From Verrucomicrobiia bacterium (GTDB lineage Bacteria; Verrucomicrobiota; Verrucomicrobiia; Limisphaerales; UBA8199): a stretch of DNA of 48,047 nt. The stretch's first letter is position 1. The number at the start of each line of letters is the position of its first letter. The position numbers and the translations under genes are program-made. The notes under the pieces were generated by a model. That model worked only from the letters and a program-made list of their open reading frames with translations, was not told the DNA's origin and did no database searches. The stretch is taken from the NCBI GenBank assembly GCA_035946615.1, contig DASYZB010000137.1:1-48047 (forward strand). The letters are read 5' to 3'. Shown in pieces: positions 3,272 to 14,038 of the stretch.

Positions 3272-3713
3272 TCATCCCACTCGGACGAGTTCATTCTCCG
3301 AGCGGAGGTAGCGGGTGAACGGCGTGTTACTGCCCAGGTCAATCAAATCCACCGAACGGCCAATCAAATCACTGACACGCGCCCATGCGATAGAAAACCG
3401 ACGGCGGCAGCCCGGAAACCGCTAGGTCGAGATCGGAAGCGGCATCACCTGTCCCGCGTGCACCGGAGCCAAAGACGTAAATTTCCCGTAGGTCATCGCC
3501 GGTGAGTTCCCCTGGAGCTGTCACGATGAAGGTCGTTCCATCGGCGGCGGCAGCATCGCTGGAAGCCCCCGTCGAGGTGCCAGTGGGGTCCGGTTTGGGT
3601 TCGGCGGCGGCTGGAGCACTGGCGGCTGAAACCGCGTTGGTGTCCTGGGCGCGTGCGATTGTCCAGCAGCACAAAGCCAGAACTGGCAACAAATAAGCAA
3701 TTCGTTTTAACAT
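3272..3713 (-). pseudogene. Chimeric relic: amt 5' end fused to nucleotidyltransferase 3' part
   Basis: From ATG 3713 (AGAAG ribosome binding site) the frame encodes an Amt-type leader, starting MLKRIAYLLPVLALCCWTIA with cleavage after ARA, then a long Ala/Pro/Thr-rich linker. Directly downstream of a P-II gene this is the expected start of an ammonium transporter. Near 3500 the frame passes without a stop into the MNT nucleotidyltransferase core REIYVFGSGARG...SDLDLAV, where GS and DxD are the catalytic motif. It stops at 3369. The MNT family continues in a different frame (ARVSDLIGRSVDLIDLGS to LVRVG, stop at 3272), so there is also a frameshift near 3380. No Amt membrane helix is present. 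The missing MNT N-terminus and more of amt lie at 13452-14038 on the other strand, which points to an inversion. It is unlikely to make a functional protein. Confidence 0.8.
3497..3501. other. Left junction of the inferred 10-kb inversion
   Basis: The switch from amt leader to nucleotidyltransferase falls at or within a few bases of CGGCG (minus-strand reading). The same five bases occur at the right junction, 13538-13542, in the same reading frame. A crossover there yields in-frame genes in both arrangements, consistent with microhomology-mediated inversion. The exact breakpoint cannot be fixed closer than about 10 bases from one sequence. Confidence 0.6.
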
Positions 3714-3768
3714 AGCTTCTAACGTGTTGTTTGAGCTTGTTCTATGGTGGTGTGGTTTAATCGAGGCT

Positions 3769-4107
3769 TCAGACTGCTTTAACCCCTTTCTCCTCGGTCC
3801 GGATGCGGATGGCATCGTCGATGGTCGAAACGAACACCTTTCCGTCTCCGATTTTGCCGGTCTTAGCGGTGCTGACGATGGCGGCAACGGCGCCATTGAG
3901 GTGCTCGTCATCCAGGACGATCTCGACTTTGATTTTGGGGAGGAAATCCACCGTGTATTCGCTGCCCCGGTAGATTTCCGTATGGCCCTTCTGTCTGCCA
4001 AACCCCTTGCACTCGGCGACGGTCACCCCGGTGATGCCGACCTCGGCCAGTGCGTGCTTTATCTCTTCCAACTTGAATGGTTTAACTATCGCATCGATTT
4101 TCTTCAT
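3769..4107 (-). CDS. glnK: P-II nitrogen regulatory protein (first copy)
   Basis: A 112-aa P-II signal protein of normal length. P-II trimers sense 2-oxoglutarate and ATP/ADP and usually gate the Amt ammonium channel or control GlnE/NtrB. It starts [20 protein letters not shown]. The T-loop [20 protein letters not shown] carries Tyr51, the residue uridylylated in proteobacterial homologues, and the B- and C-loop signature [11 protein letters not shown] is intact. The next gene downstream should be amt, and its leader does follow (ATG 3713), but the channel itself is lost, so this P-II may have lost its local partner. A sigma-54 promoter lies upstream at 4218-4233. It could equally be called glnB; the amt linkage favours glnK. 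Confidence 0.93.
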
Positions 4108-4217
4108 ATATGTTTCGGGCCGGTTGCTGGCCGCGCGGTCAGGTCGGTCAGCCGAACTGGGTTCCCGCTCACGGCCTCTCGATCAGTTGGTTGTTTGCCG
4201 CGCACCAGAGGCGCTTT

Positions 4218-4233
4218 AGCAACGGCGGTGCCA
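4218..4233 (-). promoter_or_regulatory. Sigma-54 promoter of glnK1
   Basis: On the minus strand the sequence reads TGGCAC-CGCCG-TTGCT, which has the conserved GG (-24) and GC (-12) of RpoN promoters at the right spacing. Transcription would start near 4206, leaving an untranslated leader of about 100 bases before glnK1. The rest of the 4108-4485 gap between divergent glnK1 and the kinase gene is AT-richer and holds the dyads listed separately. I saw no clear NtrC enhancer pair. Confidence 0.75.
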
Positions 4234-12718: not shown

Positions 12719-12798
12719 GAGAGCGGAGGAGGATGCGGAAAGGGACCAAACAGGACCTCCTGGAAGTCAGCCCTCCGACCCGGCTCGACCCCTGCGAC

Positions 12799-13167
12799 TT
12801 AAGTCCGAAAAGCCAGCACAAAGGCGATTTCCAAGGCCCACAAGCAGCCGCTGCCAAACAGCAGGCGGTGAATGAAACGGTTGGTCCGGCGCATCGCCTC
12901 CAGGCCGAGCCGCATGAGCGAGACGTCAATGACCCAGAGCATGCCGGGAGGGCATGGGGCTTTCGGTTCTGATAGCCGCTCATAGCGACTGGCAATATGG
13001 CCTTCTGCGGCCAGATGCCGTATGAAAAAGCACTTCCGCCGCTCGGAATAATTGTTGCGCGCGGCCCGGATAACGACCTGCTCGCCGTGTTGCTCGACAT
13101 AAATCACGTTATCCGGTTCAAACATGAAGAACGGGACGGGCTTTTCAGAGATCGCTTCGATCCGCAT
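12799..13167 (-). CDS. Hypothetical protein with C-terminal membrane helix
   Basis: A 122-aa protein with no recognised family. The N-terminal 50 residues are a beta-rich soluble stretch (PVPFFMFEPDNVIYVEQHGE). The middle is charged, and the last 20 residues (LLFGSGCLWALEIAFVLAF) form a likely membrane anchor. Codon use and amino-acid composition look coding, unlike the overlapping frames. It converges with the NhaD-type transporter gene, whose stop is 80 bases away. The region 13168-13451 upstream holds its promoter and nothing else recognisable. Confidence 0.5.
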   Translation of the reverse strand: MRIEAISEKPVPFFMFEPDNVIYVEQHGEQVVIRAARNNYSERRKCFFIRHLAAEGHIASRYERLSEPKAPCPPGMLWVIDVSLMRLGLEAMRRTNRFIHRLLFGSGCLWALEIAFVLAFRT

Positions 13168-13451
13168 AACGAATTAGACTGCTTTGCCGCCAATCAGATT
13201 CATGGATGCACTCTGACACGACATCTGGTGGTCAAGCAACTAAAAGATGCGATTTCTTTTAAAAAAAGGCGCTGTCGCTCGCTCAAGCAGACCGACTGTT
13301 CCAACCACGGCCAGCCACGGCCAGTCCGCATTGAATTGCGGCATTGCGCCCGGCGCGGTCGTCCATTAACATGGCGTCGGCTTTTATTTCACGCGTCACT
13401 CGGTCAACGCATTGGTGTGACCTCGTGTGCGCGAATCCGAGTCTCCATTGT

Positions 13452-14038
13452 ATGTCGCCGGACCGCTTCCAACTAATTGACCGGCGTGAAAATTCTCTGG
13501 TGCGCGAAATCATAAAAGCAAAACTCCCGGAGCCGGGCGGCGTGTCAAGATGGACCGCAGAGGGCAAGCTCGTGCATCCCGTGATGCCCCACAATATTCC
13601 CTTTGTCATGCTGGGCACTTTCATCCTGGCCTTCGGATGGTTCGGATTCAATCCCGGCTCAAGCCTTGCAGGAACCGACCTGCGCATCGCGGTCGTGGCT
13701 GTCAACACGATGCTCGCCTCCGCCACCGGCGCTCTGGCTGCCACACTATGGATGTGGTGGGTGCGGACGAAAAAGCCTGACCCTTCCATGATGTGCAACG
13801 GCATGCTCGCCGGCCTGGTGGCCATCACCTGCCCTTGCGCGTTCGTCAGCGCGGGCGGCGCCTCTATCCTTGGCGCTATTGCAGGCGTCCTCGTCGTTGA
13901 ATCTGTGTTCTTCTTCGATAAGATAGGCATCGATGATTGCGTTGGTGCTATCTCCGTCCACGGTGTCAACGGCGCTTGGGGCTGTCTGTCGCTGGGCTTG
14001 TTCGCCGATGGAACCTACGGTTCAGCCAACGGCTCATT
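13452..14038 (+). pseudogene. Chimeric relic: nucleotidyltransferase 5' part fused to central amt
   Basis: From ATG 13452 the first 30 codons ([20 protein letters not shown], then PEPGG) form the amphipathic start expected of an MNT nucleotidyltransferase. Near 13540 the frame becomes an ammonium transporter core: [55 protein letters not shown] and [18 protein letters not shown], corresponding to helices 6-10 of AmtB and including the conserved helix-10 HG motif of AmtB. Helices 1-5 are missing, and after ADGTYG the amt homology ends where an antisense antitoxin gene begins. The frame stays open to 14150 but that tail is antisense to the antitoxin. It complements the relic at 3272-3713 exactly. 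A functional channel is not possible. Confidence 0.82.
13538..13542. other. Right junction of the inferred 10-kb inversion
   Basis: CGGCG here matches the left junction (3497-3501, minus reading) in the same codon phase. Joining 13452-13542 to the sequence reading leftward from 3497 gives a continuous nucleotidyltransferase (...LPEPGG + DDLREIYVFGSGARG). Joining the amt leader to 13543 onward gives a continuous, though internally deleted, amt. Confidence 0.6.

Follow-up and report, generated by a model that had tools for sequence, protein, structure and literature searches.

A probable historical inversion that cut a second ammonium-transporter gene in a verrucomicrobial genome

The comparisons described below indicate that a block of ~10 kb, extending from 3.49 to 13.5 kb of the window, was probably reversed by a historical chromosomal inversion that is now fixed, a reading drawn from the sequences of this genome and its relatives. 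It retains the single ~10-kb inversion of the original prediction, in favor of which the gene order in relatives and two broken linkages speak, although the event was less clean than had been claimed. The window, i.e., the whole stretch of DNA analyzed, is the entire contig C137 (~48 kb) of the genome designated G000, a fragmented draft of 161 contigs that is 96% complete; its relevant features are collected in Table 1. Relatives of the locus that carry names include MAGs of Limisphaerales and Pedosphaera, and the host is accordingly taken to be an uncultured verrucomicrobium. The relatives are samples drawn from the order; a search for closer ones retained the best 80 of 376 candidate loci, and 12 non-window loci formed the synteny set. 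No genome of the same genus was present among the genomes searched, and a literature search found nothing on this amt/MNT inversion locus.

Table 1 Features of the window in and around the inverted block.
Feature	Position	Strand	Basis or remark
tRNA-Pro(TGG)	3025..3102	+	ARAGORN; outside inverted block
Decayed HepT + MntA core	3194..3489	-	DNA comparison with G119
Left junction J1, ~2 bases fitting neither parent	3490..3491	-	amt reaches 3492, MNT starts at 3489
amt 5' segment (leader, to ~residue 90, G033 register)	3492..3713	-	Comparison with relatives' amt
glnK1 (P-II), open frame	3769..4107	-	Directly upstream of amt leader
Sensor kinase + response regulator	4486..6428	+	Convergent with PP2C/kinase, as in G021; by eye taken to be KdpD/KdpE-like
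PP2C phosphatase-protein kinase fusion (presumed label)	6540..8297	-	Synteny marker
Amino-acid permease	8550..10601	-	
glnK2 (P-II)	10645..10998	-	
CitMHS_2-type transporter	11291..12718	+	Divergent from glnK2, as in G009
Repeat Q half-fragment	13424..13461	+	Ends at hairpin base
Repeat R half-fragment	13467..13567	+	Ends in hairpin loop; has flank of MNT-linked copies
Right junction J2	~13562-13567		2-5 bases overlap
amt core (~residues 351-506, G033 register)	13563..14021	+	Amt comparison
Third junction J3, amt homology end	14022..14038		C-terminal ~87 residues replaced by unrelated sequence

Both ends of the block and the sequence lost there

At the left end, a minus-strand open reading frame beginning with the ATG at 3713 carries the leader of Amt, which runs in frame into the core of a nucleotidyltransferase (MNT) devoid of its start, just as had been read from the letters alone and is now confirmed by the reading frame and by comparison with the genomes G033 and G119. 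The leader aligns from residue 6 of the intact Amt of G033. Set against the amt genes of six relatives, five of which share both aspartate codons there, amt homology extends as far as GATGAC (base 3492). The window segment 3258–3489 is 90.6% identical in DNA to G119, while the start of the related G119 MNT gene (L095:717) has no match in the window, DNA homology beginning only at 3489. Compared with G119, the MntA core lacks the first 21 codons and contains a 2-bp frameshift, and HepT has a 363-bp deletion at 3255/3258; neither frame is intact in the window. The related G119 genes resemble the MntA/HepT (MNT/HEPN) type VII toxin–antitoxin system in matching NCBIfam MntA_antitoxin (44.7 bits, under the cut-off of 60) and, for HepT, Pfam HepT-like_2, whereas the window copy, with no start, a frameshift, and the HepT deletion, is a remnant. 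Beyond it, the ORF at 2177–3103 shows a weak match to an AbiEii-like nucleotidyltransferase (18.7 bits versus a cut-off of 22.5); the start given for this ORF overlaps with tRNA-Pro, which is encoded on the opposite strand.

At the right end, an ORF on the plus strand runs in frame into an Amt core that is 90% identical to residues 351–506 of the 593-residue G033 Amt. This half of the chimera foreseen at 13.5 kb stands, but the stretch preceding it, which had been taken for an MNT-like N-terminus, is a dispersed repeat, and its assignment to MNT is rejected. When the 30-residue peptide encoded at 13452–13541 was searched for in 245 genomes, the window matched itself and three relatives were obtained. 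G119 contains two of these, one being located just upstream of MNT on the opposite strand, and G021 contains the third. The junctions, formerly placed at 3497 and 13542, are actually found at 3489/3492 and ~13562–13567, so that the CGGCG reported at both (3497–3501 and 13538–13542) lies ~5 and 20–25 bases off. Microhomology through CGGCG is rejected as the driver of the event, as some 5-mer was common to both members in 94% of 5000 randomly drawn pairs of 60-nt sites.

Amt homology stops again at ~14021 (J3), and the two Amt pieces of the window cover ~245 of 593 residues, leaving out ~260 residues in the middle (~90 to ~351) and 87 at the C-terminus. A full-length ammonium transporter is not encoded here, the window covering positions 184–331 of the 399 in the profile PF00909, and a search of the rest of G000 did not yield the missing middle of amt. 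An ORF of 99 residues (14039–14338) occupies the place expected for the Amt C-terminus; it has no Pfam or NCBIfam match and by eye is presumably antitoxin-like. Because the middle and C-terminal residues are gone, un-inverting the block gives no complete amt. The claim that inversion would rejoin both genes whole is thus not borne out: the 5' end of MNT is missing as well, the repeat halves are misoriented, and undoing the inversion does not restore both parents base for base. The losses amount to ~780 bp of amt (versus G033) and ~120 bp between MNT and the repeat (versus G119).

The two 600-bp junction zones share no exact inverted match of more than 8 bp, which makes homologous or site-specific recombination unlikely. 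The same comparison bears on the switchable (phase-variable) inversion that had also been suggested, and with which the in-frame chimeras at both ends would agree. Given that terminal inverted repeats are limited to 8 bp in these zones, that sequence has been lost at both ends, and that neither orientation yields a complete amt or MNT, a switch of this kind is extremely improbable.

Gene order and amt copies in relatives

A marker outside the block, tRNA-Pro, is located near the glnK2, permease, and PP2C/kinase genes in 3 of the 12 non-window loci (G021, G150, and G268:C173), and in all three it is upstream of and co-directional with glnK2–permease–PP2C/kinase, opposite to the arrangement in the window. 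Relative to these three relatives, the block is reversed with its internal order kept. In the stretches of the other nine loci, three of them shorter than 5 kb, no tRNA-Pro was found, and the same-family genomes G009 and G012 are without the tRNA-Pro link in the stretches examined; a tRNA scan of seven of the best 80 loci (L131–L135, L143, and L146) gave tRNA-Pro only in L134, on a contig of G150, and a tRNA-Lys in L135. IspH lies on the far side of tRNA-Pro in G021 and G268, but neither the window nor the G150 stretch yielded it; its absence beside tRNA-Pro indicates that other rearrangements took place nearby.

At the opposite end, a full-length amt comes directly after glnK in six relatives (G033, G083, G136, G112, G004, and G075), and in G150 amt is intact with glnK not directly upstream. 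The window glnK1, up to 80% identical to the GlnK proteins of relatives, lies directly upstream of the amt leader. Both old linkages (amt leader to amt core, and MNT to repeat, the latter seen in four loci) are broken and both new junctions are present, with losses. The comparison of synteny with relatives, proposed at the outset as a check, has thus supplied a block reversed against three tRNA-Pro loci and intact amt genes for reference.

Alternatively, no single inversion may have occurred, and a series of separate deletions, insertions, and local flips during decay of the region may look reciprocal by chance. The region does contain at least five lesions (J1, J2, J3, the junction between the repeat halves Q and R, and the HepT deletion), the gene order around amt differs between relatives, and at the same locus of G021 the CitMHS_2 C-terminus abuts an Amt fragment on the opposite strand. 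However, the block is reversed as a unit with respect to tRNA-Pro, the order glnK2–permease–PP2C/kinase–KdpE–KdpD is kept as in G021, and two separate linkages are broken, one at each block end; we therefore consider a chance accumulation of independent events unlikely and a single inversion the better account.

G021 and the window share convergent KdpE–KdpD, followed in G021 by the Amt fragment on the un-inverted strand, without glnK1 between. In that genome (L045:15594–16177, G021:C133), the last 54 residues of CitMHS_2 on the minus strand abut the Amt fragment on the plus strand (~residues 314–449), after which comes an ORF that by eye we take to be a glucokinase. As G021 lost most of the same amt independently of the window, loss of the second amt happened at least twice. 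The only other Amt in G000 is full-length, located behind glnK on contig C161, and 34% identical over residues 252–578. Since this intact glnK–amt pair remains, the amt cut here is a second copy that was probably dispensable.

The palindromic repeat at the right end

The repeat is ~165 bp long, with nested inverted arms and an inner hairpin. Searched as DNA in 14 genomes picked for kinship or shared genes, it gave 20 matched places in three of them (12 in G268, four in G119, and four in G021), 16 of which are copies of the R half; the family occupies loci L111, L112, L114–L121, and L123–L128, and G000 holds one copy only. With dispersed copies and a conserved hairpin, the element has the character of a REP/MITE-type repeat, the covariation term of its fold being slightly unfavorable (+0.29). 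The alignment of 14 of the 16 copies contains 25 consensus pairs, six of which are changed on both sides, and two copies fold as DNA better than shuffled sequences (z −2.4 and −3.6). Rfam gave no match on the repeat in seven repeat-bearing loci and in window positions 2900–14500; off the repeat, it returned four rows for group II introns in L124, a single row at chance level in L117 (E 0.83), and the window tRNA. The intron matches (RF02012 and RF00029; L124:59–729, G268:C85) lie close to a repeat copy.

Among the copies in relatives, 4 of 16 R halves are positioned immediately upstream of MNT, present as a gene or a remnant (G119:C31, G268:C54, G268:C100, and G021:C109), the MNT at G021:C109 being itself cut. 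The flank from which the window R half starts is common to the three uncut MNT-linked copies and to G268:C110, whose 3-kb locus has no MNT match. Counted from the other side, the repeat accompanies MNT at 4 of 13 loci, three of these four having come from the repeat search; among loci found by MNT alone the figure is 1 of 10 (G119). G000 contains a single such MNT remnant and a single repeat copy, and the two flank the block at opposite ends, as do the two amt pieces. Considering that 4 of the 16 R copies in relatives sit directly upstream of MNT, the repeat and MNT were probably neighbors once, and such a former neighborhood would fit a reciprocal exchange.

In all eight copies with both halves matched, Q and R face each other, whereas in the window they point in the same direction, the R half joining amt where it ends in the hairpin loop. 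Because the halves are misoriented, a bare inversion is insufficient and an extra step is needed. Homologous recombination between two repeat copies was also considered and is unsupported, with one copy in G000 and no repeat match at J1.

The repeat also bears on a metagenome misassembly, in which 3.49 and 13.56 kb would be false joins between pieces of two contigs or strains. The draft is fragmented into its 161 contigs, and the repeat also occurs elsewhere in the order, in genomes that could stem from a shared sample. Nevertheless, both junctions lie within one 48-kb contig, and neither junction zone has a second copy in G000, the one 20-bp match in the leader being at chance level (E 0.2), which, together with the lack of an inverted match above 8 bp, leaves no obvious bridge for a misjoin. 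The junctions are moreover reciprocal, with losses of hundreds of bases that a simple misjoin would not give. A misassembly thus appears quite improbable, and we return to the inversion as the preferred explanation.

Predicted course of the inversion and its meaning

As reconstructed from relatives, the ancestral order would have been tRNA-Pro(+), HepT/MntA(−) with the palindromic repeat just upstream, CitMHS_2(−), glnK2–permease–PP2C/kinase(+), KdpE–KdpD(−), and glnK1–amt(+). In the predicted course of events, the chromosome broke within amt and either in the palindrome or next to it, the hairpin presumably being the site that broke, and the block was rejoined in the reversed direction, its ends probably being joined without homology (end joining). 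The right junction may have retained, captured, or acquired by copying a repeat fragment of ~100 bp, and this would represent the extra step. Chromosomal inversions joined without homology may carry deletions or short insertions at their junctions. The present case is similar in its reversed block, in its little or no microhomology (no clear overlap and ~2 filler bases at J1, and an overlap of 2–5 bases at J2), and in the loss of flanking sequence, but differs in the palindromic-repeat fragment at one junction, and its mechanism is put forward here from sequence only. G000 contains two Ku genes (C138:7961–8503 and C41:25863–26408); Ku was found in 1 of 14 control genomes (Bacillus subtilis).

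Rearrangement provoked by palindromes in E. coli is controlled by SbcCD and RecA, and when these are absent an interrupted palindrome of 246 bp is reported to give inverted duplications (PMC3315005). The window resembles that system in having a hairpin-forming repeat at the rearrangement, cut within the hairpin, and differs in being an inversion with loss and in its shorter element. GTAG repeats have been reported in the verrucomicrobium O. terrae (PMC3733652); REP-type palindromic repeats share with the window element the character of short dispersed palindromic sequences, whereas the latter, at ~165 bp, has nested arms. Besides the window copy, two of the 16 copies in relatives (G021:C109 and G021:C156) are cut at the hairpin. 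It is a doubtful proposal that the palindrome accompanying MntA/HepT in this order is a recurrent fragile site, the breaks of which would reshuffle its neighbors, including toxin–antitoxin remnants, via homology-free joining.

With MntA/HepT decayed as well, both chimeric products are to be regarded as pseudogene scars, and the scar was probably neutral. As genome scars go, the inversion is of an ordinary type, visible here almost to the base, and its general importance is modest. It provides a worked example in which the suspicion of an inversion raised from raw sequence was tested by gene order and base-level junctions, and it shows how a second ammonium-transporter gene was lost via rearrangement, the accompanying P-II gene having kept an open frame. 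It also draws attention to a dispersed palindrome as a possible cause of chromosome breakage in this uncultured group of Verrucomicrobiota.
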